Made by a program: the position numbers and the translations under genes
Shown here: piece after piece, positions 27,910 to 57,889 of the stretch
Layout of the letters: each line of letters starts with the position of its first letter
How positions within the stretch are numbered: the stretch's first letter is position 1
Notes under the pieces: model-generated
Seen by the model: the letters and a program-made list of their open reading frames with translations, nothing else
Database searches by the model: none
Told to the model about the DNA's origin: nothing
NCBI GenBank assembly: GCA_021442155.1
Contig: CM038214.1
Span: forward strand, 139,228,040-139,292,039
Length of the DNA stretch: 64,000 bases
Direction: 5' to 3'
Origin: Cymbidium sinense
Lineage: Eukaryota > Streptophyta > Magnoliopsida > Asparagales > Orchidaceae

Positions 27910-28420
27910 ACTTGACACGTGCGGCGAGTGAGGTGCTTTCCACATCACCAAATTAGCGACTTAAACATCTCATCATAACATGTGGCAATGACTTTATGCT
28001 TTATATCCCTTTAGATCAAGGATTGAATGGCCATGAATTAACCCACAATTTTAAAAGGTGAAATAGGATTTAAAATGTGCATCTAATCTCAACCGTCCAT
28101 CCAAAATGCATGGATGGACAGCTGAGATCATCCCTATTCTTCCACGAGGAATAATGGAGACCGTCCACTTTCAAAGGGAACATCCAAGCTTGAGTTCGGA
28201 TTGGAATGAAATCATACACACCATCTAACCTAATGGCAAGCCTATCCAATGGTCAAAATCTCATGCCATTAAACTTTCTTTCAAAGGACCAACACCTAGA
28301 GAGTTTTATGCTCAAAAAATTCTAACCTCGGGAGGTGATCACTTTCGATTCCCTTAAGCTTTGTGCGGTTGAGACAAAGCGTGTGTGTAGCTCTGGTTGA
28401 GTGGATCTATGGACCAACCC
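27910..28420. promoter_or_regulatory. CpG-richer patch with CACGTG G-box in E4 3' LTR
   Basis: The phrase GACACGTGCGGCGAGTG near 27,914 stands out from AT-rich surroundings. CACGTG (27,916-27,921) is the core of plant G-box and ABRE elements. The other E4 LTR has GACACGTAGCGG at the matching place (near 47,497), so the G-box is lost there. Promoter function is a guess. Confidence 0.3.
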
Positions 28421-28999
28421 TCTTAGCTCCTTTGCAATTTTGATGGAATTGGATCTACTCTTCCTTTGAGTTGGGAAGATGTTGGGTAAGCTCGACTTGA
28501 TCCTCTGGTGGAGTATGCAAAGTGAATTTGGTGGAGTTTGAGTGTAGAGTAAGTTTTGAATTCAATGGACCTCCCCTATTTTAAAAGGATGAAAACCAAG
28601 AAATGCCAAAATCCTTTCTAGAGCTTAGGATCACTCTAAGATGGTTCTTATGACTCTCTAACACTCAATCGATAGTGAAGAAGTTGAATTCAAGTGGAAT
28701 TAGGTGGATTATATCTCCCCATAAGGCAATCGGGTGGCCGAAGCATTGTTTGCCTTTTTGATCCAATTGCCAAGATTGAAAGGTTTGTTTGAGTTGTTAG
28801 AAGTTTGCACATGGTTAGTTTGGGCTAAGGAGTGGAGTGGTAACCTCCCATGTTCTTCAAATTGAGTGGAGGGAAGTTTTCCATATGGCTAATTTGAGCC
28901 ATGTGCTCGATTTTGGCCTTGGGTCAATTTGGGCTGACCCAAACTCATTGGGTTGGGTGCACCACCCTCCATAGGGTCTACTTGACCTATTAGGAAGGT

Positions 29000-30000
29000 A
29001 TCAAGTAGATATGAAGAGGGCTTGACCACATTCCCGATGGATTTGACCAAAATTTGTTTTATGGCCTAGTGGTAGAATGGTCATTTGGCTGATATTTGAA
29101 TTTGGCTATGTTGGGTATGTTGAGAAAATAGATTTGTCCAAGTTTTATCGGATTTGGAGTTCATTTGATATGGTTTGGCTCATGTCGACTCATTTAGGTC
29201 AAAATGGGTCAATTTGGGTCAAGTTGACTAATTGGTCAAATTGGGTCAAACCAAGGGTTGGGTCAAGTTCATATGACCATTTGAAATGTTTTTTTTGGCT
29301 TTGGTTTGATTCAATTTGGTTTAGGATTGAATTAGGTTCATATGACTTCATTTAGGTCAAATGGGTCAAGTTGACCAATTTGACCCATTTGAACTATTTG
29401 AGCTAGGTCATGGGTAGGTTTAGGTTTAGTTAGTCATATGAAGTGGATTGATTTCTTCATTTCCAATCAATTTTGGTTAAGTTTGAATTTGGCTCAACAT
29501 GACCCCTTTAGGTCAAGTTGGGTTCAAGGTCAATTGGGCTAGGTTAGGTCTAGTTGGCCAATTGAGGCTTTTGGTCAAGTTCAACGTGATTTGGAATGAA
29601 CTTGACCCAGGTTTCAATCAATTTTGCTTAGATCAAGTTTTGACACATTTTGACTTTTAGGTCAAGTTGGGTCAACCTTGGTCAAATTTAGGTTGCTCAA
29701 ATGTTGGTCAAGTTCAAACATTGTTCATGAATGAACTTAGATCATTGGTTTCAATCAATTTATGGTGATTTTTCATTTCATTTTGTTTTGGTCAAACTTA
29801 GGTTTGACTTGGTTTGACCCAATTTGATTGATTGATCATCTGATGATTGTTGATCATGATGAGAGGCATAAGTGAGTTTGATTCAATCCTTTGGTTGGGA
29901 TTAGAATTTGGCTCATAAGGGTACTTTTAGGTCACTTTGGGTCAAGTGAGCCTAGGTGGTCAAATGGCTTGGTCAAAGCTTGATTTCAGTTTGATTGAAC
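29000..30000. promoter_or_regulatory. TTGACC/GGTCAA-dense zone (E4 3' LTR)
   Basis: Same zone as 17,700-18,720 in E3. Includes TTGACTAATTGGTCAA at 29,224-29,239, a one-base variant of the palindrome, and GTCAAGTTGACCAATTTGACC near 29,365. Candidate W-box cluster. Confidence 0.4.
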
Positions 30001-30309
30001 TTTTATATGAACTTATGATTGAAATATAAATCCATTTGCAAGTGGTTTGAAGTCAAATGGGTTTTGATTCATTTGACAATCATATTCAAAGGAAGAATAT
30101 GATTGGATTTGGGATTTTGAATTGATTTTGGTTAAGTGATTGAAGCTTTATTTATATTTGGATTCATGATTGTAGGGTTGATTGAATCATGAAGGAAAAT
30201 CAAGAGTTTGGCTTGATTTGTGTGGATTTGGCTAAGTTCAAGATTTTGACTACAAAGGCTTAGGTTGGATTTTGGGTGGATTTGAGTTTGATTTTTAGAA
30301 GTGGTTTTC

Positions 30310-30990
30310 ATTGTTTGAATTTATATTTCATTTATATATGTGATTATAAATGAGAATATAAACGGGTCATGAAAAACTTTCAAGGATTTGAACTGATTTG
30401 ATCATGATCAAGGCTAAGTCTTAAGAGAATTTAAAGGACTTAGGAAATTTTTTTTAGTTTGGAGCTTGAATTTTTGATTTTGATTTGATTGATTTATATT
30501 TATATTTCATTTGTATATGTGGATATAAATGAGAATATAAATGAGTTATGAGAAAATCCTATGAATTTGATTTGATTTGATCATGGTTTGGGCTGTCCTT
30601 ATGAAGGAAATTAAGGACTTAAGAAAGATTTTAAATTTGGAATTTAATTTTTGGATTTGATTTGATTGATTTATATTTAGATTTCAATTATATATGTGAA
30701 TATAAATTAGAATATAAATGTGTTATGAAAAAATCCCATGAATTTGAATTGATTTGAACATGATTTAGGCTAAGTCCTTAAGAGGGAAATTAAGGACTTA
30801 AGAAGGATTTTAAATTTAGAATTTACTTTTTGGATTTCATTTGATTGATTTGTTTTTATATTTCATTTATATATGTGAATATAAATGAGTTATGAGAAAA
30901 TTTAAAAGATTTGAAGTGATTTGATCATGATCTAGGTTAAGTCCTTAAAAGAAGATTAAGGACTTAAGAAATATTTGGACTTAGGAATTT
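30310..30990. repeat. four-unit tandem repeat of about 177 bases (E4 3' LTR)
   Basis: The phrase TATTTCATTTATATATGTG recurs near 30,327, 30,504, 30,678 and 30,859 (spacing 174-181). Each unit also carries GGCTAAGTCCTTAAGAGG and GGACTTAAGAA. The pair within each unit, CCTTAA...TTAAGGACTTAAG, makes short inverted repeats. Confidence 0.85.
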
Positions 30991-31287
30991 CATTCATGAG
31001 TTTCAATCATGGATTTCAATCATGTGGCATTGATTTGAGTTTGGAGAAAATCAAATAAGACTGATTTGAGGTTTGACATGAAGGAAGGAAGGTGAGGAGT
31101 GGTTCAAGCTAAGGGTAGGCAAATTTTTTCACCCCTAAGGCATGATATTCCTATGGCTAACTCTTCTAAGTCTCTAAGTGGTTAAGTGTCCACCAATCAC
31201 TATGTCTTAAGATTAAGGAACTCTTAAAGTAAGAGAAGTCCATGTCTAAGATGGAGGGGTTGAGAGCTCATTCTAAAAATGAGGTCA

Positions 31288-33690
31288 ACAAAGGCGCCAA
31301 TAGGTGTGGTGTGACTAACAAAAGACCTATTGGTGTTGACTAAACAATCAACAACAAGAGATCACAAGCTAATAAAAATAATCTATCCCTAACCTAGTGT
31401 AGAAAGAATCCAAGCTTAGTGCAATGTGGCTCTACTTATGTCCAAGACATATGAGAGGGAAGAATCCACTAAGGGATAGAGTGTGAACCTTCCACTAGGG
31501 AAGCAGCTTCAAGTCATCCAGAAGGGAATGAGAGGTTTGATTTGACTTCTCATTGAAGAGAAATTTTCACTAGGGAAGAGGGTTGAATTTGTTTCAATTT
31601 TAGATTTGGATTTTGTTATGGACCTTGTTGGTTTGTGATGGACTGCACTGAGTAGGAGCCACAGAGGTCTAGACCTAACTCAAATTTACCAATTCAAAAG
31701 GGTAGTCTACTAAACACATAGTAGGACTAGCCAACCAAAGAGATGCCTTTTAGTATGTAGCAACTACTAGAAAGAAAGTGTAGTACACTTACATCCTCCA
31801 AAGTAGAGATTAGTTGCTAAGTTAATCTATTGACAAGGCAACAGGTTGAACCCAACCTAGGGCTAACTATTGAGTGAATGTTGTTGGGGGACTTAGATCA
31901 GCTCAAGGATAGTCATGATTAATTTTATTTTTAGATTTATTTATTTTGATGGATTTTGTTTGGTTTGCGATGGATCACACTGAGAAGGAGCTTATATCAG
32001 CCTAGACCTATCTCAGATTTACTGAACCAAAGGGAGTAGTTTCCAGGCCGATGGGAGAACTATCCACCAAAGAGTGCCTTTTTTGTAATGATCAATTCAA
32101 GGGAAGAAAGCTTCGGGGCTAACGTCTTTCACTAGAAAAGACCACCTTGGGTGATGGTTTGGGCAACAAATCAAACCTAACCTCGAGCCTGTCAATAATC
32201 ATGCTAGAAAAAATGCATCATAGTCTTATATCTCCCAAAGATGAATGATTGTCGGGGTAACCTGCTTGTAACAAAATAGATTGAATCCAATCTAAGGGAA
32301 ACTGTGGAGTGAGTGCCGACCTGGGAAACAGCGGAGTGTCTTATATCTCCCAAAGAAGAATGATTGTCAGGGCTTGAATTCCTAATCCACAAGTGAATAT
32401 TTTGTTTATTTTGTTTAGTTTGTTTATCATGGACCATGTTAGTTTGTGAGGATCAAATTAAGAAGGAGCTATATCGCCTAGACCTATCTCATTTAAACCA
32501 AGGGAGAATCTGCACATCCATTGAACAAATTCTCCAACCACAGGGGTGGCTACTAGGAAAGGACTACCCAATCCAAAAGTAACCCAGGGAGTGTCTAAAT
32601 AGGATCACAAAGGACATGATCCAAATAGAGTGCTCTCAGGGAGAGGGGCCGCTAAGGGCTTAGTCCATAACCCTAGAGAAGATGACATGGATGTCATATA
32701 TCTAATAGGTATTGTGGTCTCAAGGAGAAAGCACAAGGACTCACAAGAGTGGTGTATCCAGGGTGAGTCATCATCATAGTGAACATCAACCAACCTAAGG
32801 GGTCCATCGGTTTGCAATAATCAACCTAGAAGAAAGCTCGGAGTCACATCCTCTATTGAGGGATTCGGATAGTCTATCTTCGACTTGATAGGTTGTATCT
32901 AACCTAGGGTGACTACTGAGTGAATGACACTAGGGACTTATATATGCTCACATGTAGATAAGAGGAAAGGAGCCTTTGGCGGACTTATCCTAAACCTCAA
33001 ATATACTCGACCTAGTTAGATCATGATGATTAGTTCAAGAAGAAAGCTTAGGGACTCACATCTTCCTAAACAAAATCAACACGAGGTAGTTTACTGCCTG
33101 GGCAGTGAAGACTACCATACTAACAAGGCGCTCATTGGTTTGCAATGGTCAAGTTAGGAGGAAAGCACAAGGACTCATATCCTCCAAATAAGTGACCATT
33201 GGGGTGACATACTAGCAAGGTAGCATGTAGACCTAAGAGCGCTAATGAGTGAGTGCCACAGGGGCTTGCTCCCACATCAAAATAGCTCAAGTCAAAAGAT
33301 TTGTGTTTATTTTTTGTTAATGTGTTAAAAGGAATAGGATGCCTCTGGGGGACTCTTACACCTACCTTAAAGATGCTAGTGGATTTGATAAAATGATGCC
33401 ACAGATGGCAAAAAGGAATTCACACTCAGAAAGGATGTCGCTTGGGTTCTCTCACACCTATCTTAGATATGCTAGTCAAAATAGGATGCCTCTCGGGTTC
33501 TCTTATACCTATTCTAATAGCATCGAGGGATTGTGTTTGTGTTGTGAAAGAGGGATAGGATGCCAATAGGGGACTCTTACACCTACCTAGACATGTCATG
33601 GATTAAGATTAGAAAATAATGCTTCAAAGAGAAGATTTGATGAATTGAATCAAATTTTTATTCTTTTTATTAATAATTATTTTCAAACAT
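31288..33690 (-). repeat. E4 3' noncoding region with tandem repeats
   Basis: Counterpart of 19,362-22,560 in E3. Unit starts (GATGGA..GCACTGAGTAGGAGC and variants) lie near 31,616, 31,950 and 32,429. Four copies of the GGATGCCTCTTGGGTTCTC unit lie at 33,338-33,600. The PBS-like motifs of E3 are reduced here to fragments such as TTCCACTAGGGAAGC (near 31,489). No gene is seen in this stretch. Confidence 0.75.
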
Positions 33691-33699: not shown

Positions 33700-34780
33700 C
33701 ATGGGTAATATTATTTTAGGTAGAGCCCATTAATTGGAAGCATCGAGTGTTCCCCTTTATAATCAATAAGTTGATAAGATCCTCCTTGGTAGGCCTTCTC
33801 TATGACATAGGGGCCTTCCCAAGTGGGTTCAAACTTGCCTCCCATCTTTCAATGGGCAACAATTGGTCTCCTGCAGACTAACATAAGTTCTCTGAAAGAC
33901 CTAGGCGACCAACTTGTTGAGCTTGAATCATTTTGGCTATGTACAACTCGAGGTTCATGCGCCATGGAGACTCTCCTCCAAACCTTCAAGCTCTTTATAA
34001 CTTGACTTTGTGCTCTGAAGGGATCTTGCTACCCAATGATATCCTTAGTGATGGGAGTTGAACTTCTAAAGGTATGATAGCTTCAGACCCATAAACTAAA
34101 GAAAATGGGGTAGACTGAGTTGGAGTTCGGTATGTGTTATAGTAGGCCCACAAGGCTTCAACCAACTACTCGTTCCATTATGTTTGTTATCATCAAGAGT
34201 CTTCTTGTATGGATGAGAGTTTTGTTGAATGCTTCTGCTAAGCCATTTGCTCTGGGATAGTAGATGTTGGAGTATCTCTAATCTATATCATGTCTTCTGG
34301 AGAAGTTGTTGATCTTCATGCTTTTGAATGTAGTGCCATTATCAGATATAATTCATCGAGGCACCCCGAACCTATATATGATATGGTTCCTGAAAAATTG
34401 AAGCACATCTTTGGTGACCTCTCTGAGTGGGATGGCATCCACCCACTTAGAAAAGTAGTAGGTGGCAGCTAAGATGAATTGATGACCCTTGGAAGATGGA
34501 GGATCGATTGGACCCACAATGTTGGTACCCCAACATTCAAATGGCCATGAGGCAATGTAGGATGCAGAATGTTGGGTGGTTGGTGGAGGACCATACTATG
34601 TACCTAACACTGATGGCATCTCCTAGCTACATCCATGTAGTCTGTAATCATTGAAGGTCAGTAGTATCCTAGTCACTTGATCTTCAACTTCATCTTTGGA
34701 CCAAATTGATGTGCTTCGCATAGACCTGAATGTACACCAATTATAATGCCATCGACTTCATGTTTGTCTAAATAACGTAA
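33700..34780 (-). pseudogene. integrase (E4)
   Basis: On the minus strand, from high to low coordinate: zinc-finger region (about 34,560-34,780, with YYWPSM and DVARRC-like motifs), the core (about 34,000-34,560), and the C-terminal GPY/F-like domain (about 33,700-33,990). The second catalytic Asp is kept in an ISDNGTTF motif (Asp codon at 34,341-34,343). The Glu motif NGLAEAFNK is recognisable near 34,240-34,270. A TGA stop sits just before the SDNG motif (34,353-34,355), and more stops and frameshifts follow. Comparison with E3 shows the same family. Confidence 0.8.
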
Positions 34781-34989
34781 CCATATTTGGTCAAAGATCG
34801 GCGGTATAGGGTGCCATCAACGAGAGTGTAGGAGTTAGCTCTCTATTTCACTTGATGGGCTTGTGACTTATCTTGAGGTAGTTTGTCAGTGTTCAAGTAA
34901 TCTATGAACGGTTGCCTCCAATCTAGCTCCTTGTCCATTTTGTCAATGGAAACCTCCCCTTCAAGATAAAGTCTCTCGATGAGTTCAAC

Positions 34990-35460
34990 ATCAATAAGGG
35001 ATAGGACTTGTTTATTTTAGGTCCTTATTGAAATAGACTCATCTTCGACATGCCAATTCTTTGGCAAGTTTAAAATCATACTCTGCATTCTTTACTGGGA
35101 ACCTTGTAGATGGTGACTTGAATTTGGGCCAATAGCTTTATGGAATACTGTAGTAATGATGAAGCTTGGTTTGAGAACCTTGTAGGACCCACAATGCGTT
35201 GATGACCAATTGGGAATCCCCAAAGATGTTGATGCTCTTGACACTGATAATGATGGCTAACTCCAAACTGGTAATCAAAGCCTCATACTCAGCTTAGTTG
35301 TTGGTGCAAGGGTTGGAAAGATAGTATGAGAATCTCATCACATCACAGTCTGTATTTAAGAGAACTATTCCTACCCCTACCTTTCCTGGGAGAATAGATC
35401 TTGGTGCTTCCCCTTTGTGAAAAGAAGCTCCACCATTAAAATAAATCTCCCATTGGTGAT
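34990..35460 (-). pseudogene. archaeal-type RNase H domain (E4)
   Basis: The minus strand carries IYFNGG (35,420-35,440, where the family usually has FDG, so the first catalytic Asp appears changed to Asn), then AEYEALITSLELAI (near 35,260-35,300) and IFGDSQLVIN (near 35,205-35,235). This second RNase H between RNase H1 and integrase is the hallmark of the Tat group of plant Ty3/gypsy elements. Stops and a frameshift split the domain. Confidence 0.75.
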
Positions 35461-35654
35461 TGCCGACCTCCCTAAGTTCATGATTTATTCATTAGGGAGA
35501 TCGTCACTAAGTGGAGAATTAGCAAGAAGTGGGTGTGCTGCTAAGAAATTTGCTACTACCTATCCTTTTACCGCACGAAGGGTTACAAATGTGATATCAA
35601 ACTGCAAAAGAATCATGGACCATCGTGCTAAACATCTGAATAGAGTTGGCCGAG

Positions 35655-35890
35655 TCATGAGATACTGAGTGGATTTGTTCGGGAGATCAAGTTCACCTTA
35701 TGAGAAAACATGTAGTGCCATAGCTTTTGGGAAGCAAAGATTAAAGCTAGGCAATGTTTTTCAATAGGTGGATAGTTCATCTCAGTAGGAATCAGACCAT
35801 GACTAAGGTAGTATAGAGCGTTATCCTTCCCTTCATCATTGGCTAGGGCCAACAAAGCCCCGAGAGAATCATCCAATGTAGCAGTGTAGA
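35655..35890 (-). pseudogene. RNase H1 domain (E4)
   Basis: A 73-codon open stretch (35,655-35,876) with DDSLGALLA at its start, YYLSHGL, MNYPPIEKHCLALIFA and a NLISRTNPL end. These are standard features of the RNase H1 attached to Ty3/gypsy RT. It is followed downstream by a spacer and then aRNH. The connection to RT (35,900-36,100) contains several frameshifts. Confidence 0.8.
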
Positions 35891-36099
35891 GGATGAGTGG
35901 CCTTCCGGATAGCTAGAACTGAACTAATTCTCTTGCTTGATGTCTTTGAAGGTATCTTTGGCACTTATCATCCCACTTAAACTTGGCATCCTTTTAATAA
36001 GTGCTGAAAATGGTTTGCATCTCCGATAGGTTGGAGATAAAGCATCTTACACCACCATCCCAAGGATCAGTTGAGTAAAACTCTTAGGAGGTGGCATTT

Positions 36100-36790
36100 C
36101 TAAGATAGCTTTGATCTTTTCAAGATCTATTTCTATTCCTAGTCGAATAAACCCAAGGAATTTTCCTAAAGCTACTCCGAATGCACACTTCAAGGGATTC
36201 ATTTTGAGGTTATATTATCTTAACCGTTCGAAAACTACTCTCAAGTCAAAGAGGTGGTCTTCCTTTTCTCTACTCTTGACTACTAGATCATCAACGTAGC
36301 ACTCAATCTGATGATGGATGAGTTCTTTGAAAATTTGAGTCATGGTCCGTTGGTATGTAGCACCAACATTTTTAAGGTCGAAAGGCATGACCATATAATA
36401 GAAGATTCTGATTAGGCTTTGGAAGGTAGTATTTCTTTTATCTTCAGGAGACATCTTGATTTGGTTATAGCTAGATGACCCATCCATGAAAGAAAAAACT
36501 ACATGAGATGACACAATGTCCACCATTAATTCTAGTATAGGAAGATGAAACTCATCCTTAGGAAATGCCTTGTTTAAGTCCCTAAAATTGACGCATATGC
36601 GAATTTGGCCATTCTTCTTCTTAACTAGAACAACACAAGCTAACTAGGTAGAATATTTTTTTTTCCTGATGAAACCAGCATTGATCAATTTCTTGACTTG
36701 AAATGACCATTGTTCAATTTCTCGCATGTATCTAGGAGCTTGCTTAAGAGGTATTAGGATCTATTTAGCTTTCTACATCGAGATAATCAG
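36100..36790 (-). pseudogene. reverse transcriptase core (E4), YVDD retained
   Basis: The open stretch 36,215-36,526 covers the palm: FMDGSSSYNQIKM near its start and the catalytic box YVDD at 36,287-36,298 in a CYVDDLVVKS context. The fingers (VKKKNGQIRI and FRDLNKAFPKDEF-type motifs) lie at about 36,540-36,760 in another reading frame. The enzyme copies element RNA to DNA. Frameshifts and stops separate the segments, so no active enzyme is expected. Confidence 0.85.
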
Positions 36791-38060
36791 GCATTTCTTC
36801 ATAACTCCATGTGAAGCAGTCTTTAAACTCAGTCAATAGCCTAACTAAGTCATTGGTTTCTTCTTTATTCAGCAATGAACTGATGTACGTCGGTCGTGTA
36901 TTCTCTTCTCTCCCGAGGTTGATTTCTTTAAGCTTGTCAATTGTTGAATGAATCTCTTCTTCAAATTCTAGTGCTACCTCTTGACTTGGAGATCATTTGG
37001 ATCATCTGAGGTTTCTAAACACACATTCTCATAAGAGTTGGTGTTATGTGAGAAGAACCTATCAGACTCCAAATAATTAGTAACAATTAAGCAATATCAT
37101 CATCATCGACTGGACCCAATGTACCAAATCCTAGTCCTTCTCTTGATTGTGCTTCCCTGTCTGTATTGTTCCATAGTTTTTCAAAGTACTCTGACCTGTG
37201 CTTGGACCATGTGTGAGGAACTAAACCTTTTATAAAAGATTATGAACAAAAGGTGAGTAAAAGTCAAATTGCAATTCCATTAATTCTTTAAATATATCCT
37301 TCTCAAGTTCTACATCAACTTCAGGACTTGAGGATGATGTTCCCAAAAAAAATATCTTACTTCATGTCACTGGAAGACTTAGGGACTTCCTTAACTACCA
37401 AACCTTCAACTTTCTGAGATGTAAGTGAGGTTAGAGCTAAGGTTCTCAGCTGCTGCCTAATAGTCTCACATAAACCTGATTCGAGTACTTTGCTTTATTT
37501 GGAGGCCTAGTCTTCATCTCTATCTGGATCGAAAGTCACCTCCAATGGAACTCGCTGAGAGGGTTTTCCTGGCATACTAATCACATTAGACTCATCCTCT
37601 GAGCTAGATTCCAAGTCTATGTGAATAGTAGGGGTACTCCAATGAACTGGAATATGACCTCTATTGGTTGATGGCTAACCAGAGGGTCTTCCACCTCGAA
37701 GCCTCCTCGTTCTGCCTCTACCGGTGAAGGTTGATCCATCCTACCCACATGTCCATATGATGGAATGAACGTGGGTGGAATGTAATATGTGATCTATTTC
37801 TTCTCTTTCTTATTGACTTGGATTTTCATTTATCTTTCATTTATCTTTTGTCTTTTCTTTTTCTTAATTTTCTCATTCTTTTGATTTTAAGTTTGAATTT
37901 TTTTTCAAGTTCATGAGAAAGGGTGTTTTGAGGAAGATAGTAGGTCGTATAAATCTCAACCTGTCTAACTAAAAATGGCTTTTCATCTCCATTGACATGG
38001 TATTCAATCTCATCTTTTTTGAACTTGATGCACTAATGAAGGGAAGATGAAATGATCTTG
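36790..38060 (-). pseudogene. protease-RT linker of E4 with lysine-rich tract
   Basis: Collinear with 2240-3540 in E1 and 53,131-54,360 in E3. From low to high coordinate: the INLG-type entry to RT (about 36,880-36,960), a GFGTLGPVDDDD-like stretch near 37,095-37,135, an Arg/Gly-rich patch near 37,690-37,740, and a T-rich tract at 37,808-37,905 that is lysine-rich on the minus strand. In Ogre elements the protease-RT region can contain an intron; I cannot identify splice sites here. Confidence 0.5.
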
Positions 38061-38450
38061 TTAATCCAAGGCCTATCGAGCAAAGTAGTGAATGAAGTAT
38101 TCAAATCAATGATGTAAAACTTTGTTTCAGTCTTCCAGTCACCTACATCTAAAGGTAACACTATAGATTCTAAAGCTCACTCAACTTATTCGTTAAATCC
38201 TCTCAACATCATCTGATCTCCTCAGAGTGTGGAGATGTCGATCCTCAAATAGGCAAGGGTCTTTACACATAATGTTCACCGATGCATCTGGATCTATGAG
38301 AACTCTGGCGAGTCTAAACCTGTCTATGTCGAGTATGATGTAGAGGGGACGGTTGTGCTCCAAGTCCCCCAGAAGAAGGTCTTCATTTATGAAGGTGATC
38401 CCCTGAGCTTCTTTTATGTAATGTGCCTCCTCACCTATAGCGATCAATTG
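38060..38450 (-). pseudogene. aspartic protease (E4)
   Basis: Retroviral-type protease that would cut the polyprotein. The open stretch 38,193-38,447 has RPLYIILDID, then LIDPDASVNIM at 38,267-38,302. The family pattern is LID(P/N)G(A/S)S.N, so the Gly after the active-site Asp-Pro has become Asp here, probably inactivating. The second half continues in another frame to about 38,060. Confidence 0.75.
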
Positions 38451-39400
38451 AGCTAAACATATTTAAGGATCAAGGAGAGCCTTGATTAGTGATTCCCTCA
38501 TCTCTTTGGATAAAATAAGGGCATCATATATGCTTTGCTTAGATGGCAACTTTCTTAGATGAGAAAAGACATTGTAGTCCACCTTAGGCGGGCCTCCACA
38601 AAGCATATCCAAGGGTGGACCATTGTGGAGGGCTTACTGTACCAATGGCTTGTTTCCCTTTATGTTGAGGTGTTGCCCTAAGAGGTAGAACCTTGCCACT
38701 ACGGAGGTCGACTTTGGTGATCACTTGTGGTATGGTAATGGAATGTTCTACCTGCACATCAGGCTCACCTACAACATCTTTTATGAGACCCTCAGAATTG
38801 AATGATTCCAAGTATATCTCAAGAGGTGAACCTATAGTATTCAGAGTAGGAAAATCCAACTCTGAATTAGAAAGAGGAAGATCAGAATTATTATAGTTAC
38901 TTTGACTTGAAGAGTTATCATTAGGAATAGAATAAGATAACCCATCAGAAGTGACATAGATGTAATTAAAACTAACTTTATTCATCAATTTCTTAGATTT
39001 ATTTGGAGGTACAAAGTAGAAATCAAGTAAAGTGAGGGGGTAAAGGATTTGATTCCCTTATCCATTGATACAAGAGTTCTACTAGTAGAATAAGAAGAAC
39101 TAGCTAAAGTGTAAGAAGTCACCAATGTGGAAGCTACAATTATAAGCTGGAGGCTAGACTCGGTCAGTGGTTGCACTAATGGGCTATCCTGGGCTGACAC
39201 ATGCTACTATTGTGGTTGCTGCTGCTGAGCTCCCCCTTTCCTCGAGTTGGCACTGACAACTTGCAAACCTTCTTTGGTGTTGGAGGTTTGAAGAGCACCT
39301 ACAAGGAAAGCTTCTTGATCTTTTGGATGATCTTCTTAGAGGTTTTGGATAAAGAAATATCCCAACCTTCTTTAGTTTTGGAAGGATCACATGTATCCCA
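38451..39400 (-). pseudogene. gag-protease spacer (E4)
   Basis: The 134-codon open stretch 38,584-38,988 is rich in Ser and Asn at its N-terminus. It has DLRSGKVLP in its C-terminal part, resembling the TRSGRV motif that often precedes protease in Tat/Ogre elements. E3 has a close match (NLRSDKVLPPR at about 55,010-55,040). The part 39,000-39,400 holds further Ser/Thr-rich low-complexity frames. No enzyme domain. Confidence 0.6.
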
Positions 39401-40330: not shown

Positions 40331-40439
40331 AAATTCATGCCAAGAGGGAAAGTGAAAACTAACTTTTGTGAGCTTGCCATTTTAGATCAACTGCAAAGAC
40401 TGAGAAACTGAACTGTAGCTGTACTGTAACTGATGGTGA

Positions 40440-42810
40440 GAATCTGCAATAGGAAATGAGTTTGGATCAGATTTTTATCTTTGTTGATTCTTGAATTTGA
40501 ATTGAAAATTTGAACCCACATCCAACATCTTGGAAGTGTTAAGTGGGGTTCAAATGGATTTGAGAAGATTTAGAAATTTGATTGAAAGAAGAATTTTTTT
40601 TAATATGAATCCAACTTCAACAAATTTGGGTATCTTGAAAAGTCGATTCAAATATTTTTAGATGGATGCTTCCATAGGTTCATGTTTGTTTGAATTTAGA
40701 GATTTTGATTTGAGGACCCTTTAATTTAACAAATTTTTTTATGTTAAAGTAAGGGACAATTGATTTTGTTTTTGATTGATGATTTTGGAATTTTACTCAA
40801 TTATAAAATTTGGGTATGCTAAGTGAAGTGTTTGAAAATAATTATTTCTTTTTGTGAATTGTTATTTGAATTTGAAAATTGTAATTCCCATATGCTAAGT
40901 GAAGAACCTAAGTGTGTTTTGTTTGATTTTTGAAAATAAGATTATTAGAAAATTTGGGTATGCTAAGAAAATTCTAAGTGTTTCATTTGTTTTAGGATGT
41001 TTTGATTTTTGAAAGAGTAAGATCCTTAGCAAATTTGGGTATGCTAAAGAAATCCTAATGTGTTTCTTTTTTGTTTTGATTTGATTGAAAGTGGAGACTT
41101 TACTTTACCAAATATGGTATGCTAAAGATGAAGTACCACTTAGTTTTGTGAAATGAAAATTTCACTTAGCAAATTTGAGTATGCTAAATGAAGTTCCAAA
41201 TGATATGTTCAAAATTTTGGATTTGGTTTTGAAATAGGAAACTTCTCCTTTGGAAATTTGGTATGCTAAAAAATAAAGTTCCAAAGGTGCTTGAAATTTT
41301 TTTGGTTTTGAATTTGGACACTTCACTTAGCAAATTTGAGTATGCTAAATGAAGTTCCAAATATGTTTTGAATAGTTTTTTTATTTTGAAGTTGGAGACT
41401 TCACTTAGAAAATTTGGGTATGCTAAATGAAGTTCCAAATGTGTTTGAATTTTTTTTTTATTTTGAATTTGGAAACTTCACTTAACAAATATGTGTATGC
41501 TAGATCGAGTTCCAAATATGTTTCAAAATTTTTGGTTTTGAATTTGGAGACTTCAATTAGCAAATTTGAGTATGTTAAATGAAGTTCCAAATGTGTTTGA
41601 AAGTTTTTTATTTTGGATTTAGAAACTTCACTTAGCAAATTTGAGTATGCTAAATGAAGTTCCAAATGTGTTTGAAAATTTTGATTTTAAATTTGGAGAC
41701 TTTACTTAGAAAAATTTGAGTATGCTAAATGAAGTTCCAAATGTGTTTGAAAGTTTTGATTTTGGAATTTGGAGACTTCACTTAGGAAATTTGAGTTTCC
41801 TAAATTGAAGTTCCAAATGTGTTTGGAAATTTTTGGTTTGAAATTGGAGACTTCACTTAACAAATTTGAGTATGCTAAATGAAGTTCCAAATGTGTTTGA
41901 AAAAAAATTTGATTTTGAATTTGGAGACTTCACTTAAAAAAATTTGAGTATGCTAAATGAAGTTCCAAATGTGTTTGAAAATCTTTGATTTTGATTTGGA
42001 GAGTTCACTTAACAAATTTGAGTATGCTAAATGAAGTTCCAAATGTGTTTTGAATTTTGAAAATATGATTGTTAAGTTTTGATTTTTGAAAAGAAGGTTT
42101 CCATTCAACAAACATGGGTATGTAAGGATGGAAATCAATCTTATTTTTGCAAATGTGAAAATTTTATTTTATGTGTGATTATTGCTTTTTGAAAGAGGGA
42201 ATTCCAACTTAAACATATGTGGGATATGTTTAAGTGGGATTTCTAAATGATGTTATTTTTACTTGGGAATGAAATCCTCATTCAATAAATTTGAGTATAT
42301 TGAATGAAGATATCCATATGTGCTTTTGAAAAATTTAATTTTATTTGAAAATGAAACTTTCATTCAATAAGTGTGAGTGTATTGAATGGAAAGGTTCATG
42401 TGTGCTTTGAAAGTTTATTTTGGATTTTGATTTTGATTTTTTGGAAAGATGATTGTTCATTTTATTTTGAAAATGAAATCTTCATCAAAATGAATTAAAG
42501 GAAGATGTTCATTTGTGCTTTTAGAAAAGATTGTTAGTTTTACTTTTGAAAATTTCTACATGTAATAATTATGAGAATTGTTAATTGAGGGTGATTTAAA
42601 AAAATTTTTGTGGAAAATATTATATTATGTGCATCTTTTTTTTTGAAAGAGTGCTTTTCAAAAAGTAAGACTTTTATGAAAAATTTATTTTATCTTTATT
42701 ATTTTAGAATGAACCTTTCCTTATCTTTAAAAATGATAAGGAAGAAGTCCTTAAATGTTTTCTTTTAATTTAGATTTTATTATTTTTACCCATTGGAGAA
42801 CCCAACGGGG
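40440..42810 (-). repeat. hairpin array in the E4 leader
   Basis: About 2.3 kb between primer-binding site and gag. It contains many short inverted repeats with a common loop close to AAATTTGAGTA (plus strand). Clear examples are stems 41,161-41,171 with 41,182-41,192 (TTCACTTAGCA/TGCTAAATGAA), 41,314-41,332 with 41,343-41,360, 42,203-42,217 with 42,225-42,239, 42,278-42,287 with 42,298-42,307 (TCATTCAATA/TATTGAATGA) and 42,717-42,725 with 42,735-42,743. From 41,160 to 42,080 the units form a tandem array with a period of about 75 bases. Short minus-strand open frames here (MELHLAYSNLLSEVSK type) are by-products of the repeat. Confidence 0.85.
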
Positions 42811-42989
42811 GTTTTAAGACCAACACGGAGTGAGGTCCTCAAACCTAAAGATGTAGGCCAACTCAACATAAGAATGAAATTAGCTAAGTGCCAATGGAAA
42901 TAAAGATAGTCTTGAATTCATACCAAAGTATAAACCCACTATAAATACTCAAAGACAATGATCATTTACCAAAGATGGAGAGAGGAAAT

Positions 42990-43008
42990 TTCTCCAGCGG
43001 AGTCACAA
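42990..43008 (-). other. primer-binding site of E4
   Basis: The minus strand reads TTGTGACTCCGCTGGAGAA, close to TGGCGACTCCGCTGGGGAC. The latter is a primer-binding site type that I recall as complementary to a tRNA-Arg 3' end in Ogre elements. It starts ten bases after the end of the 5' LTR (CACCA at 43,018). The first bases differ from TGG, so the site is damaged. Confidence 0.7.
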
Positions 43009-46000
43009 AAAAATTTGTGGTGAAAAATATATTCTTTTATACATTTCTTGCCTTCATCTATCCCCTCTCCCTTTTGAGAAAAGAAGGATAAATGAAAACA
43101 AAAATATATAAAAATATAATCCACCTTGTTGGGACACCACATAGATCTACAAATGTTCTTATTAAGGTGATCGGGTATGATAGTGAGGGGAGGTGTACTA
43201 TCTCAAAGATAGAATTCACCGCCTTCCAATGGACCTAATCACCCGAATAAGGACTCCTAAGTAAAATGGGTCTGCATATGTATTAGAGATTCTTCCCCTA
43301 CTTTACATGGAAAAGTAAAGTAAGGTTTATTTTAAACCGGATTCATTAAGTTCCCTACAGGGGCAAGCCCCCATAGTTATTTACATCTTAAAAGATGGGA
43401 TCCCTTAGGAATATTCTTGATTAAGGTAAATGATCGTTGTCTCAAATATTTCAATAGGGTAGGACTATCAATTGATTAGTTTATTTTGGGTGATCAAATG
43501 GGATTGATCAAAGAGAGAGAGTTATTATTGAAGCCAAAAGAAAGATAAGTAGGAGATGCCCATGAGCATCTCAAACTATCCTATGGTTGGGCTTTACATT
43601 TTTGAAATTGATTTAATTTATTTGAATTGAATTTTTATTAGAAATTTATGACTTATGGTAACATAACACAAGATTAAGGAAATGTCTAAGAGGTGAGGAT
43701 TTATGCTTATAGCCCATTAAAGGGCGAAGCAACCTCAGAACCCAAATCTAGGGAGCTTTGGCGAGGGCCGAAAGCACAACCTAAATCTAAGGCAAAAAAT
43801 GGGTATTTGGTTTGCCTCCATAAGTGAGGAAAAATTGCCCAACTGTTTGGACTAACAATCACCTAGGGGTGGCGCCAATTAACTCCTCCTACGATTTTAA
43901 ATTCATGTAGGAAAGTCATATGCGTTATGCAAGATAGTTAGGTTGTTATTTATTTAGAAATAGACTAAGTCCTTGAACTCACTGCCTAAAGAGACTAAAT
44001 CATGTAAGGACATGCTTCAAATGACCTAAATCTAATGCAATTCAGATTTCATTTTTATTTTCATTCTTGGATAATTATTTTGACTTAGGCTATTAGGATT
44101 CATATGCCTAATGCTTTAGAAATAAGATTATTGGCCAAAATCAATGAGATGGGAGGAGGTGTGTTTCCACCATGGCTCTCAAAGGTCAAGCCAAGTTTCT
44201 CTAGCAAAGGTGGAAGCCCTCCAATAAAGAGTGAAAATAATATGCATTTATGTATGATGTTATAAAAGAAGTACTCATCTAGCTAAGGGTTGCTAATTCT
44301 TTTATCTTAATTTTTGTCTAAGATTTAGGTGAAGTTATGAGTTCTCTTTATTAGTTTGATTGTTATGTTTGGTAAGAGATTTATTTTTCCTAAGAGCCTA
44401 ATCCACATCATACATAAAGTAAGAAAGAAACTAGGAAAAGGATGCCACTTAATGCACAAGCTGAATAAATCATCAATTAATTTATAAAGCTAATCACAAA
44501 AGAATAAGAGTGGTGGGTACCACCACACAAACCCAAAAATAAATTGGGTAGCTGAGCTCTACCCTTATACAACCTAGATTACAAATGAATTAAATACAAT
44601 TAAGTAAGTAATTCATTGTTATGGGGGTCTTCAAACTTCATTTCTTCATTCTTCTTTTCTTCTTTCTTCTTTGGTTCCTTCTTTTGGATGGTTAAAAGGT
44701 GGATGCTCCAAATGCTTTACATGGAACATAAGATAAGATCTTATGACCAATGTTCATCTTAATCTCCATAATGATCATTCCAAAATCCTAATTACAAAAT
44801 TTACATGAAAAGAAAAAAGTAAATCTAACTAACACCTACAAAACAAAGGTTAGCTAAACAAACCACCAAATCCCAAGCATGTATATTGGACTTATCACCC
44901 CACACATGGGTGACTAAGTCCACTGCCTATTGGATTATGCTTAGGGGTATAAGCACTTGCACAACAAAAGCATATATATTTTTATTTATTACAGTGCCCC
45001 TTAAGCACATTCCCTTGCATAAGATAATGGTTAGACTAAGATCGCCCAACCATTAATTCTACTCACATACATCCAAAACATCTACATAAAAACATATTTC
45101 ATAAAACAAAAGAAAGCATCAAACCATGCACCACCCTAACCTAAAGCTAGAAGTGGTGACTTAGCCTAATGTGTGTGCTTTGGAGGTTTGTGTGGTATGC
45201 TTAACCATGGCTTTAAGTTAGAATTTTCTAAGTGTGAAGCTTGTTCAACATAGAGGAGGGTTTCATTTAAGTGATTTAATTATTTTGGGTTGATTTTATT
45301 TCATGTTCTGATTAGGTTCAAGCGAATCCTACAATTAATTACTAAGTTATAAATAGAGAGAAAGAGAAGGGAACTTCTCTTTCCTTCCCTAACCTAAGTA
45401 ATTTCTAAAGTGGATTTATGTTTTAGTTTTATTTAGTGAATGTTTTAATTAAGTGTTTTAATTAATCCTAACTTTAGATGAACTCTAAACAAACCTATTC
45501 AAAAAGAAAGGCATTTTAAGATTAAATAAATTGAATGAAGTCACAAAACATACATCACTTCATTTCTTTTCCAACATGTATAACATGCATATGAATAAAT
45601 CCTAAGCATATCTATACATCAAATGAGAATGCTTAACACACTTTTATGATACATGCTAAGTAATTTATTTAAGAAAATTTGAAAGTTTATGATGCATAAT
45701 TTTTATTAAGTAGAAAAGAAATTTCTTGTCCAATTTTCACATGCACACTTGAAAGTAATAAAGGCATAAGTGAGTACAACGCCATTGTTAACTAGAGGTG
45801 TAAGGTATAAGACCTACTTAGGGCTACTTAAAGCCTTGCATCCTTGGGGTTGTCCAGAATAATATACCACTTTTCTTAAATACAAACATGTGTACAAAAG
45901 AAATGAATGGAAAAGAAAGAATGCAAGAGCTTGTGTTAGTTGGTTTATTTTTATTTATGCAATTTATATATGTAAGCATATGTGTCCTTCTTAAGTGATA

Positions 46001-48779
46001 GTATAGGAATGAATAGGATATGGAATTAAGAAAGTGTTAGGTTCTTTTCAAATGAACCACACACCTTGCCAAATCCAATTCAAAACTATACTAAAAGACA
46101 AGAGAAGAAAAACCTACACTAAGCACATCCTTATATTTTATTCACATGCAAACTTATAATTAAGATATAAGTAACACACTTTTAGTTTTGATAATTGATT
46201 TATATATTTTGAAAATAATTTGAATTTAATAGTCATAATAGCCACTCATATTCTTACTTTGGCCAACACATGCAATTTGACATAAAGCAAAAAATTTTTT
46301 TTTTTAAATTTGATTTTTGAAAGGCATGGATGCATGAAATCACATGACATACATATTTAACATGTTGGGGAAAGAACTAAAGCAATGAAAGCATGTAAAA
46401 ACATTCACTTTAATTAAATCCTAAAGACAATCTTATAAAATAAGAAAGCTTAAAGTAAATCAAAGTTTATTTAATATGATTTTTGTTCGATTTTGAATTT
46501 AATTGAATTTTGAAAATGTGGATTAAGTTTTCTGTTCCTAACCCATTCCCACATGTGTTTTACATTTTTGTTTAATTTTTAGATGATTAGATTCATTTTA
46601 TATTTTGATTAGGTTAAGCTATGAATTAAGTATGTTAATCAACCCTTACCTGCACCACCTTAGCATAGTTAACCAAATAATTATAAGCCAATGAGATGAC
46701 ATAAAACCTCACAAGAAATTTAAATTTGCAATGCACCTAAGAAGAAAAGGGCCTAATGTAATTTGGCTCAAGATTAATGGTTAATAAAGCTAAAGGGTTT
46801 AACTTAAGTAATTTCAGAACACCCCTCACACATATGAGTTGAGTTTTGATTTCCTTAATTGAACTTAGGCTCTTGAACACCTAAGAATCTACCCAAAGTA
46901 AATTAATTAAGTTCTAGAAAGTTTTAAAAATTTTAAGAAATTAATTAAGAGGGTAATTAGTGAATTAAACCTTAATTAAGAGAAGATTAGGAAGAAAAAG
47001 GGGTTTAGGGAATAGCTTAGAGGAAATGCCCCAAAATTATTCTCTAAACTTCCTATTCATTAGATCAAACCTAATCAACTTCAATAAAGGATTAAAACAC
47101 TAATAAAACCCTTAATAATCCTTAATTACATAATGGGGGGGGGTAATTAGGAAATAAGTTAGAAATTCCCCTAATTAAGCAACCAATAAATCCCAAGAAA
47201 ATTAGGAGAGATAAAAGTCATCCCTAGAAATATACCCAAGAAGTTTGAGATTAATCAGTGGATTAATTAGGGAAGAATTAGCAAATTAAGATTTCCAATT
47301 AAACCCAACATCAGAGAAAGATAATATTCAAAATCCAATAAAACTAATTTTAGAATATTCTAGATTGAATTATCTTTCAGTGGCAATTTACCTCATATTT
47401 TTATGATTTTTCATTAGAGAGATATTAATTTTTAAAGTTTAGTGGATTAATTAGAATTATTTAAACACTAATTAATCCTGTAATCCACTCAGCGTGACAC
47501 GTAGCGGCTGAGTCAGGTGCACTTTCCATGTGTCAACAAATGAGCAACCACTTAAACATCTCATCACAACATGGGCGGTGGTGCTTCGTTCGATCAAGGA
47601 TCGAACGACCAAGAAGTTACCCGTGATTTTAAAAGGGGAAATAGGATTTAAAACATGCATCTAATCTTGGTCATCCATCAAAAACATGCAGATGGATGCT
47701 TGAGATTATCCTTATTCTTCCCTGAGGAATAATGTAGACCATCCACTTTAAAGGGAACATTAGCTCCATCGAGCTCGATTGGAATGAAATCTTGCACACA
47801 CCATCTAACCCTAATGGCAAGCCTATCCAATGGTCAAAATCCCATGCCATTAAACTTTCTTTCATAAAGGACCAACACCTAAAGAGTTCAGTGGTTGAAA
47901 AATGCCTAACCTCACCAGTGCTCGATTCCCTTGGAGGAGCTTCGTCTGGTTGAGATGAAGCTATGGTGAGAGTATTAGCTCCTAAGGTTGAGTGGATTGC
48001 TCTATGGACTAACCCCTCCTTAGCTCCTTTGTAGGTTTGATGGAATTGGATCTCTTCTTGCCTTTGGAGCTTGGGAAAGACGTTGGCTAAGCTTGACTTG
48101 ATCCTTTGGTGGAGTACACAAAGTGAATTTAGTGGAGTTTGAGTGTAGAGGGAGTTTTGGATTCAATGGACCTCCCTTATTTTCAAAGGATGAAAATCAA
48201 AAAATTCCAAATTCAAATCCCTTATAGAGAGCTTAGGATCACTCAAAGATAGTTCCTATAACTCTCTAACACTCAATCGATAGTGAGTAAGTTGAATTCA
48301 AGTGGAATTAGTGGGAGTATATTTCCCCCCTATGTAAATCGGATGACCAAAGAATTGTTTGCCATTTTGATCTAATTGCCAAGATTGAATGGTTTGTTTG
48401 AGCTATTAGAAGTTTACACATGGTTAGTTTTGGCTAAGGAGTGGAGTGGTAACCTCCCATGGGATTTAAATTGAGTGGAGGGAAGTTTTCCATATGGGCC
48501 AATTTGAGCTATGTGCTCGATTTTGGCCTTGGGTCAATTTGGGCTAACCCACACCCATTGGGTTGGCTGCACCACCCTCCATAGGGTCTACTTGATCTAT
48601 TAGGAAGGTATCAAGTAGATATGAAGAGGGCTTGGCCAAATTCCCCATAGACTTGACCAAAATTTGTTCTATGGCCTAGGGGTAGAATGGTCATTTGGAT
48701 GAATTTTAAATTTGGTTATGTTGGGTATGTTGAGAAAATAGGTTTTGCCAAGTTTCATTGGATTTGGAGTTCATTTGAT

Positions 48780-49500
48780 ATGGTTTGGCTCATGTTAACC
48801 CATTTAGGTCAAAATGGGTCAACTTGAGTCAAGTTGACCAATTGGTCAAATTGGGTCAAATAAAGGGTTGGGGCAAGTTCATATGACCATTTGAAATATT
48901 TTGGTGGCTTTGGTTTTGATTTAGTTTGGTTTAAGTTTGAATTTGGTTCATATGACTTCATTTAGGTCAAATGGGTCAAGTTGACCAATTTGACCCATTT
49001 GACCTATTTGAGCTAGGTCATGGGTAGGTTTAGGTTTAGTTAGTCATATGAAGTGGATTGGTATCTTTGTTTCCAATCAATTTTGGTTGAGTTTTAATTT
49101 GGCTCAACATCACCCCTTTAGGTCAAGTTGGGTTCAAGGTCAATTAGGCTAGGTTAGGTCTAGATGGCCAATTGAGGCCCTGGTCAAGTTCAACAAGTGA
49201 TTTGGACTAAACTTGACCCATTGGTTTCAATCAATTTGGCTTAGATCAAGTTTTGACATATTTTGACTTTTTTTTGTCAAGTTGGGTCAACTTGGGTCAA
49301 GTGACCAATTGGGTTAGGTTAGACTTAAATGTTGACTTGGTCAAGTTCAAACATAGTTCATGAATGAACTTAGATCATTGGTTTCAATCAATTTGGCCTA
49401 TGGTGGATTTTGGCTATGTTAGGTTTCATTTTGGCAAAGTGTTGACTTGGTCAACCCTTAGGTTTGACTTGGTTTCACCTAATTTGATTGATTGATCATC
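48780..49500. promoter_or_regulatory. TTGACC/GGTCAA-dense zone (E4 5' LTR)
   Basis: Contains the perfect palindrome TTGACCAATTGGTCAA at 48,834-48,849 and GTCAAGTTGACCAATTTGACC near 48,976, among many single TTGACC/GGTCAA words. Being in the 5' LTR, this copy could in principle have controlled element transcription. Confidence 0.45.
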
Positions 49501-49994
49501 TCATGATGATTATTGATCATGATGAGAGGCATAGGTGAGTTTGATTCAATCCAATTTGGTTAGGATTGGAATTTGGCTCATAAGAGTACTTTAGGTCACT
49601 TTGGGTCAAGTGAGCCTAAGTGGGTCAAATGGCTTGGTCAAAGCTTGATTTGAGTTTGATTGAACTTGTATATGGACTTATGATTGAAATAAAAATCCAT
49701 TTGCAAGTTGTTTGAAGTCCAATAGGTTTTGATTCATTTGACAATTTCATATTCAAAGGAAGAATATGATTGGATTTGGGATCTGATTTTTGAATTGGAT
49801 TTTAAGTGATTGAAACTTGTATTTATATTTGGATTCATGATTGTAGGGTTGATTGAATCGTGAAGGAAAATCAAGAGTTTGGCTTGATTTCAAGTTGATT
49901 TGGCTAAGTTCAAGATTTTGACTTGAAAGGCTTAGGTCAAATTTTTGGTGGATTTGACTTTCATTTTTCGAAGAGGTTTTGATGGTTTGAATTT

Positions 49995-50700
49995 ATATTT
50001 CATTTATATATGTAAATATAAATGAGAATATAAATGGGTCATGAAAAAATTTCAAGGATTTGAAGTGATTTGATCATGATCTAGGCTAAGTCTTTTAAGA
50101 GGGAATTTAAAGGACTTAAGAAATTTTTTTGGAGTCGAGCTTGATTTTTTGAATTTGGGTTGATTGATTTATATTTATATTTCACTTACACATATGGATA
50201 TAAATGAGAATATAAATGAATTATAAAAAAATCCTATGAATTTGAATTGATTTGATCATGATTTAGGCTAAGTCCTTAAGAAGGAAATTAAGGACTTAAG
50301 AAGGATTTTAAATTTAGAATTTAATTTTTGGATTTGATTTGATTGATTTATATTTATATTTCATTTATATATGTGAATATAAATGAGAATATAAATGAGT
50401 TATGAAAAAATCCCATGAATTTGAATTGATTTGAACATGATTTAGGCTAAGTCCTTAAGAGGGAAATTAAGGACTTAAGAATGATTTTAAATTTGGAATT
50501 TAATTTTTGGATTTGATTTGATTGATTTGTATTTATATTTCATTTATATATGTGAATATAAATGAGAATATAAATGAGTTATAAGAAAATTTCAAAGATT
50601 TGAAGTAATTTGATCATGATCTAGGCTAAGTCCTTAAAGAAGATTAAGGACTTAAGAAAGATTTGGACTTAGGAATTTCATTCATGGGTTTCAATCATGG
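49995..50700. repeat. four-unit tandem repeat of about 177 bases (E4 5' LTR)
   Basis: Counterpart of 30,310-30,990. TATTTCATTTATATATGT-type phrases recur near 50,006, 50,179, 50,356 and 50,537. Copy number is the same in both LTRs, so the array existed before insertion. Confidence 0.85.
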
Positions 50701-50982
50701 ATTTCAATCATGTGGCATTGATTTGAGTTTGGATAAAGTAAAATAATATTGATTTGGGGTTTGACTTGAAGGAAGGAAGGCAAGGAGTGGTTCAAGCGAA
50801 GGGTAGCCAAATTTTCCTAACACCCTTAAGGCATGACCTATTCCTATAGCTTATTCTTGTAAGTCTCTAGGGCTAGGTTGAGTGTCCACCTGGTCACTAG
50901 ATGTGTCTTAAGACTAAGGAACTCTTAAAGTCTAAGAGAAGTAAGATGGAGGAGTTGAGAGCCCATTCTAAAAATGAGGTCA

Positions 50983-51238
50983 ATAGTTTCCTAGTGTCTT
51001 GATCTTGGCTTTCATCTTTGGACTAGATTGAGCCCACATGTATTCTTGAGTGTACCTTGATCACAATCTTACGGGCTTCAAATTTATCTAAGCAATGTAA
51101 CCACATATGATTAAAAGACAATCGATATAAGGTGCCACCTACGAGAGCGTAGAAAAGGGTTCTCTACTTCACCTGATGTGCTTGTGATTTCTTTTGAAGC
51201 TGTTTGTCAATATGTAGATAATCTATGAATGGTTGCCA
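50983..51238 (-). pseudogene. integrase zinc-finger region and linker, rest of E3 integrase
   Basis: Continues directly from 23,548 when E4 is removed. It matches 34,665-34,960 in E4 and 115-380 in E1. On the minus strand it encodes the stretch between archaeal-type RNase H and the HHCC finger of integrase. Frame is broken. Confidence 0.6.
50984..50991. other. imperfect target duplication, right side of E4
   Basis: TAGTTTCC, partner of TAGTATCC at 23,540-23,547. E3 sequence continues CTAGTGTCTTGATC... just as the uninterrupted copy does near 34,668. Confidence 0.6.
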
Positions 51239-51785: not shown

Positions 51786-51974
51786 TGAATGCTAGTGTCC
51801 CCTAAGTTCATGATTTGTTCATCAGGGAGGTCATCACTAAGAGGAGAATTAGAAAGTGGGTGTGCTACTAAGAAACTTGCTACAGTCCTTTCATCTGAGG
51901 CATACGAATGTGATGTCAAACTATGACAAAATCAACCATGCCAACCTTCCGATAGCGACCGTCATGAGATATTA

Positions 51975-55715: not shown

Positions 55716-55739
55716 TTCCTTTGATTGCTTCAATTAATG

Positions 55740-57720: not shown

Positions 57721-57889
57721 TTACATGGAGTGTGATCCTAAAACCTATAGAATATTGGCGAGCTTTGCTTAAGGATGAAATAAGCTAAGTGCTAACAGAA
57801 ATAATGATAGTCTCAAGCCTATATAAAATATAAGTCCACTATTGATACTTGGAGATAATAATTGTCTACTAAAGATGGAGAGAGTAACC

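Follow-up and report, generated by a model that had tools for sequence, protein, structure and literature searches.

We found that the leader of E4, a giant LTR retroelement of the orchid Cymbidium sinense, is a string of short hairpins with a kept loop and compensated stems. This is a real and unusual leader architecture, and it is present in three leader groups of giant plant Ty3/gypsy elements in this genome. At a probability of roughly 0.4, we read the array as an RNA signal that acts in cis, is multivalent and is recognised through its loops, its role probably being in packaging. The window analysed here is a stretch of 64,000 nucleotides on contig 1, and the genome searched for further leaders comprised 3.53 Gb.

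E4 lies on the minus strand and consists of two LTRs, leader, gag and pol (~27 kb in total). Its 5′ LTR (43013..50983, ~8 kb), the end of which was read beside the primer-binding site, pairs with the 3′ LTR (23548..31288) in two main pieces of 87-88% identity, giving LTR lengths of 7.7-8 kb. The decayed primer-binding-site stretch, TGTGACTCCGCTGGAGA (42991..43007, minus strand), is next to the LTR end, and in some copies (e.g. L028) the site read beside the LTR is nearer to TGGCGACTCCGCTGGGGA. When the LTR is read as TGACC...GAT, the flanking five bases are ACTAT and ACTAC at the two ends, a probable target-site duplication. The pol region (34756..38779, minus strand) includes a reverse transcriptase at 36,643-36,215 (Pfam RVT_1, E 5e-17), whose named matches in a protein search were plant retroelement reverse transcriptases, the best being from Dendrobium catenatum (75%). 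The gag start codon, in the context AAAATGGC, is at 40378..40380 (minus strand), with 22 upstream ATGs counted from the LTR end. E4 is inserted into E3, an element of the same kind, whose pol at 55,102-51,076 continues beyond E4 at 23,547-21,250; both parts of it match E4 pol. An RVT_3 (archaeal-type RNase H) stretch in E3, at 51,574-51,239, gave E 0.0015 and 18.9 bits, under the 21.6 cut-off. From plant reverse transcriptase matches rather than a tree, we infer that E4 and E3 are Tat-lineage-like Ty3/gypsy elements.

With this element layout, the hairpin stretch falls in the E4 leader, which separates the primer-binding site from gag; the original prediction had assigned it to the same place. 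According to the accessible part of PMC9289625, the giant orchid Ty3/gypsy elements of the Gypsy_Pa_2799 type (25.5 kb with 6.4 kb LTRs, against ~27 kb and 7.7-8 kb here) have a similar primer-binding-site stretch and, as here, a plant Ty3/gypsy reverse transcriptase, besides a demethylase ORF of their own; Gypsy_Pa_2799 is of the Tat lineage and sister to Ogre, the primer-binding site of the orchid relative and of Ogre pairs with tRNA-Arg, and the word 'tandem' has no occurrence in the main text of that source as accessible. A 179-base tandem repeat in 3.8-3.9 copies is found inside both E4 LTRs (30319-30994 and 49991-50664), and the 5′ LTR also holds a 163-residue open frame, stop to stop, at 48162-47671 (minus strand), which had no Pfam match at E 0.01.

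The E4 array (40507..42845, minus strand) comprises 24 predicted hairpins in a listing of local folds up to 64 bases (42,845-40,507), with 17 loop-motif places by strict pattern. Its homogeneous part (41222..42050, minus strand) was resolved by Tandem Repeats Finder into 75-base units in 10.9 copies. Other hairpins on the same strand are single-copy, among them one at 42274..42311 with arms CATTCAATA / TATTGAATG and loop TACTCAAATT, supported by folding and by copies, and one at 42358..42391 with loop CACTCACACT, supported by folding, inverted repeats and copies. A third single-copy hairpin of 20 positions (42199..42243, minus strand), found by the same three means, has an odd 5-base loop, CCCAC, unlike that of the family, and the majority of its pairs are conserved among copies. 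The gag-proximal hairpin (40508..40555, minus strand; loop CTTCCAAGA) is the counterpart of an E3 hairpin whose loop is nearer to the standard. The E3 leader carries an array of a second family with a related loop (55771..57743, minus strand), including 64-base tandem units at 56,544-56,928. The three stems quoted in the original prediction were all found, one with loops at 41,342 and 41,647, one with its loop at 42,297 and one with its arms in 42,717-42,743.

We observed that the minus-strand RNA of 40,440-43,000 folds with a strong excess of hairpins over shuffles, and the claim of many short inverted repeats with a near-constant loop at this place was borne out. At or below -12 kcal/mol, the minus strand of the E4 leader had 18 hairpins as against 1.6 ± 1.2 in shuffles (z 13.8), and that of the E3 leader 13 as against 2.1 ± 1.5 (z 7.3). 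With the limit at -8 kcal/mol, 27 were counted in 40,440-43,000 of the minus-strand RNA, compared with 7.6 ± 1.9 in 30 dinucleotide shuffles. In the same kind of local folding, the plus strand of the E4 and E3 leader stretches gave lower values (z 5.3 and 3.2), and six control stretches of gag, pol and LTR gave z 1.3 to 4.1 on the minus strand. Strand-neutral inverted repeats numbered 14 in E4 and 12 in E3, versus 0 to 5 when each was shuffled 20 times. When 701 bases (42,060-42,760) were folded as one piece, the result was equal on the two strands (z -4.27 and -4.34), so the strand is not decided by folding strength alone. An Rfam search of the window gave no match above the gathering score, and tRNA and viral-contig searches gave none either. 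RNAalifold on the leader alignments returned almost no structure, which we think reflects decayed copies and ragged alignment.

The pairing of the arms was compared between hairpin types. Loops were picked by sequence alone, and each 5′ arm was scored against its own 3′ arm and against the 3′ arms of other types in the same leader. Three genome searches, in which the best 40 of 3,005, 5,590 and 6,602 first-look candidates were scored, provided the material: all 39 distinct elements of the first (L001 being the window), 20 of the 39 other places of the second and six new ones of the third. Thus 64 further leaders were fetched, of which 62, together with E4 and E3, made up the 64 that were tested; L014 and L020, with fewer than five hairpin types, stayed outside this set and gave p 0.04 and 0.02 with a looser motif. 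The own partner fitted better (p < 0.05) in 57 of the 64 distinct leaders, these tests not being independent since the leaders are related. By set, the counts were 35 of 38 for the 36 leaders fetched first plus E4 and E3 (misses L005, L008 and L011), 18 of 21 for the E3 family with E3 counted again (misses L043, L045 and L053) and 6 of 7 for a third, more distant group found with L027, which is counted again here (miss L072). As the arms fit their own partners better than those of other hairpins, pairing has been maintained while the hairpins diversified.

Consistent results came from 18 window hairpins, which were hand-chosen and already known to fold. Among them 11 of 12 pairs had changes on both sides, with 41 double-changed cells compared with 18.6 ± 3.5 in shuffles, and the covariation was 0.446 as against 0.262 ± 0.027 when shuffled and 0.11-0.20 when slid. 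Further pair types showed no excess (20 versus 20.0 in shuffles).

We also followed the same hairpin across copies, using 24 orthologous hairpins chosen by hand, with helices judged to be chance or tandem repeat left out. A usable stretch was available in 33 and 37 of the 39 leaders (E4 included) in the two leader alignments, L020 being removed by hand from the second, and L049, L051 and L053 were excluded from the E3 alignment. Double-changed cells numbered 42, compared with 22.5 ± 3.9, and none of 2000 permutations reached this value; these are counts of cells and not of events, and the permutations do not keep relatedness, so that one inherited change is counted many times. Individually, 4 of the 24 hairpins were significant at p < 0.05. 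The E4 family contributed 39 of the 42 cells, and the E3 family three, no more than chance. Double changes shared at the level of subfamilies include C-G to T-A at 42,134 (ten copies) and at 42,126 (three copies), and G-C to A-T at 41,044 is shared by three copies. The earlier claim that both arms change together is therefore supported by a compensatory excess between hairpin types and, in the E4 family, also between subfamilies for the same hairpin.

The loop behaves differently from the stems. In E4 it is mostly TACYCAAATT; the exact sequences TACTCAAATT and TACCCAAATT occur nine and five times in the leader and nowhere else in the element. The E3 tandem units have mostly the 9-base loop TACCAAATT. 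Over the whole window, loop-motif matches with at least six of ten paired positions numbered 26 for the minus strand, of which 25 fell within the two leaders, and five for the plus strand, all outside the leaders. The tested leader stretches have 8 to 26 loop-motif places each. When three E4-family leaders were compared with four E3-family leaders, the loops of three shared hairpins were 90% identical, as against 66% for the arms and 58% for the surroundings; with a fourth shared hairpin, whose loop aligns with gaps, the values were 79%, 67% and 56% (elsewhere). Between L024 and L059, the four shared hairpins had 22 of 40 pairs the same and four changed on both sides, while among the one-sided changes five kept the pair and nine broke it. 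The original prediction held that the RNA fold is kept and not the sequence; pairing is indeed maintained, but the second half needs mending, since the loop is kept as well (90% between families).

Two ways in which the loop might act were tried and rejected. For loop-to-target pairing, E4 was searched for complements of the two loops; those of 9 and 10 bases do not occur in it, and those of 7 bases occur a few times. A palindromic kissing loop was set aside because its central AAATTT is not kept in the variant loops CACTCACACT, TACCTAAGTT and CTTCCAAGA.

A further part of the original prediction was an excess of G-U pairs on the element strand, and this was not observed. Summed over the 24 orthologous hairpins, one-sided changes across copies were 240 G-T versus 234 A-C, the two kinds of mismatch being equally common over the compared copies; shared variants were 51 G-T and 61 A-C, and private ones 63 and 50. 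In comparisons between hairpin types, both kinds were depleted to about the same degree in the first set of 38 leaders (G-U 317 versus 552 expected; A-C 215 versus 412), in the E3 family set (89 versus 193; 129 versus 239) and in a further comparison (11 versus 29.1; 17 versus 33.6). At 369 helix positions of the E3 family, taken by a strand-neutral rule that admits some chance helices, the commonest state was G-T at eight and A-C at seven. The C opposite A on the plus strand, noted in many stems, is indeed present, but mostly represents one inherited pair and not many independent cases: a T-G pair on the minus strand, ancestral, copied through the 75-base units and seen in E4-like groups. The unit of the opposite type near 56,815 also exists (its loop is at 56,831 and A faces C on the minus strand), though as one example of a kind that is equally common. 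An absence of G-U bias had been named beforehand as evidence against the G-U half of the argument, and that half fails by this rule; we have rejected G-U bias as proof of selection at the RNA level, as G-T and A-C are about equal throughout. The maintained pairing is Watson-Crick, with no strand preference, and because there is no G-U bias a constraint on RNA rather than on DNA is not established by it. The inserted copies look as if they decay neutrally.

One strand-specific sign remains, namely the near-absence of G from the loops and linkers of the element strand. There G makes up 0.2% of loops, 2.5% of linkers, 27% of 3′ arms and 7% of 5′ arms, and C makes up 18-23% in loops and linkers; for comparison, the G content is 14% in the LTR and 20% in pol. 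The linkers are partly non-independent through tandem copying; in four sets of linkers from outside these arrays, each with its own sequence, G is 2.4-6.6%, and in third-group linkers it is 1.9%. With its Gs mostly within stems, such an RNA would not mispair easily, and strand-blind DNA copying does not predict this pattern. The scarcity of G may also have come from a mutational strand bias.

The absence of a strand preference is what is predicted by the strongest rival, in which fold-back template switching, during replication or reverse transcription, copies one arm onto the other in tandem quasi-palindromes and keeps the arms matched without any function. Strand-blind copying would enrich Watson-Crick matches alone and leave G-T and A-C equally depleted or equally common, as was found. 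Double changes lying close together in two hairpins of L015 fit it as well. Against this, the double changes common to several copies were single isolated pairs in the five hairpins inspected, and copying leaves unexplained both the kept loop and the scarcity of G in loops and linkers on one strand. Moreover, double changes are not in excess among E3-family copies, so no copying is seen after insertion. We therefore consider such DNA copying rather unlikely as the source of the pattern. The clustered changes of L015, at window positions 42311 and 42243, might reflect either the copying of a tract or exchange between subfamilies.

A loop-recognised RNA signal finds circumstantial support in the E3 family, where most of gag is gone and the hairpins and loop are retained. 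Comparison with copies places the E3 junction, at which the leader is joined directly to the C-terminal part of gag, at 55600..55760 (minus strand). The same direct junction was present in 20 of 20 fetched E3-family copies (from 20 of the 39 other places), and the leader leads to the gag start in 38 of 39 E4-family loci, the window included, L027 being the exception. Searches of six longer E3-family copies found the reverse transcriptase in every one but neither the N-terminal nor the zinc-finger stretch of gag, both of which are present in all four longer E4-family copies. In the window copy of E4 itself, 1.5-2.0 kb inside gag, near ~39900, are missing that are present in four related copies.

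Retention of the array without a full gag would suit a packaging address that works in trans. As far as the accessible text of PMC3735527 goes, BARE2 of barley is a gag-less family packaged in BARE1 particles, a likeness in that a gag-less family stands beside a gag-bearing one with the leader kept; however, BARE elements are Copia and not gypsy, and in BARE2 the gag start codon is removed by an 8-bp deletion, whereas E3 has lost most of gag. Since E3 copies still carry the reverse transcriptase, the loss of their gag may have had causes that do not involve the leader.

Under the RNA-signal reading, the leader RNA would consist of many short hairpins, each standing apart from the next and linked to it by single strand with hardly any G. 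Each hairpin would lift a near-identical loop of 9-10 bases (UACYCAAAUU or similar) on a stem whose sequence is free; the loop would be the recognised part, and the stems would need only to pair. The array could then serve the RNA in cis as a multivalent handle, with Gag as its most likely binding partner, either its own or that of relatives, such that the unspliced genomic RNA is selected, paired or packaged. We infer RNA and not DNA as the acting form, Gag as the partner and packaging as the outcome. A fuller version, in which about twenty interchangeable hairpins offer one near-constant loop to Gag while the stems drift, and the gag-less family rides in the particles of its relative, is more tentative and seems to us somewhat improbable as a whole.

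Retroviral packaging hairpins and multi-site RNA packaging signals are leader stem-loops that share a loop motif on different stems. The position in the leader and the shared loop motif are alike here; the difference is that 8 to 26 such places lie in one stretch and that the partner is a putative one. Plant LTR retrotransposons account for much of the DNA in many big genomes, and the leader described here supplies a compact, repeated candidate packaging signal, with the gag-less family that retains the array as a natural experiment. Outside BARE, little is known of how such elements select their own RNA to be packaged, according to the accessible text of PMC3735527. A literature search, with subscription papers mostly outside its reach, returned no report of a hairpin array in a plant retrotransposon leader. 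The hundreds of paralogous hairpins also offer material for separating selection on the RNA fold from arm-to-arm DNA copying.

The leader could instead control translation or splicing, being an intron or shunted, with the hairpins setting the balance of spliced and unspliced RNA; we regard this as unlikely in its own right, and it is compatible with packaging. The 18 of 39 E4-family loci that could be measured have 19-33 upstream ATGs in leaders of 2.0-3.0 kb, which makes it unlikely that scanning reaches gag, and many copies have, as read from the alignment, a pyrimidine tract and YAG ahead of the gag ATG. The YAG is, however, broken in several close copies. Avoidance of ATG in the array was weak (19 versus 24.7 expected). 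A retroviral packaging signal is often in the unspliced RNA only, and if the leader were an intron the array would be in unspliced RNA only, which would unite the two readings. Splice-like candidates, variably conserved, are TTTG|GTAAATG on the 5′ side (~42,978) and, on the 3′ side, TTTCCTATTGCAG (~40,440) and CTTTGCAG (~40390, before the gag ATG).

That the hairpins are a by-product of plain tandem-repeat expansion, of the kind that gives Tat elements their hypervariable repeats, appears more doubtful still. Tandem arrays are present, of 75-base units in E4 and 64-base units in E3, and duplication spreads hairpins without selection. In the accessible parts of PMC7004042 and PMC11963269, Tat/Ogre/Retand elements are described as often having family-specific tandem repeats inside the element, downstream of gag-pol and before the 3′ LTR. 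The likeness ends with the tandem arrays: ours has paired arms and a conserved loop, and it is placed after the primer-binding site and before gag instead of in the Tat-type position from pol to the 3′ LTR. Its location 5′ of gag in three leader groups, the fit of arms to their own partners, the covariation of the 18 hairpins, and the kept pairing and loop of non-tandem hairpins with different stems all weaken this explanation.

We consider it very improbable that the array is a set of protein-binding DNA sites. The Drosophila gypsy leader has a cluster of Su(Hw) sites that is an insulator, and the place (a Ty3/gypsy leader) and the short repeated motif are the same, but the sites there are conserved DNA and here the hairpins covary; stem letters change on both sides (11 of 12 pairs) while the loop is kept, which bears on sites in the stems and not on a loop-only site. 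Least probable of all, at the edge of what we would entertain, is a small-RNA decoy or source that feeds or saturates the Dicer machinery of the plant. The many stem-loops in a non-coding leader speak for it, and a plant pararetrovirus leader offers a precedent; against it, the stems of ~12-20 interrupted pairs are short and dicing does not require a constant loop.

Besides the window (41640-56440), leaders of the E4 and E3 types lie 14.1-14.3 kb apart at two further places on the contig, C1:139091004/139105131 and C1:2700857/2715196, with the same spacing in all three. At these two places the identities differ between the two parts (98 and 94%, and 95 and 90%), and the recurring pairs suggest segmental copies of the whole nest. 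Elsewhere in the window, 12306-12720 holds interstitial, degenerate telomere-like TAAACCC repeats.
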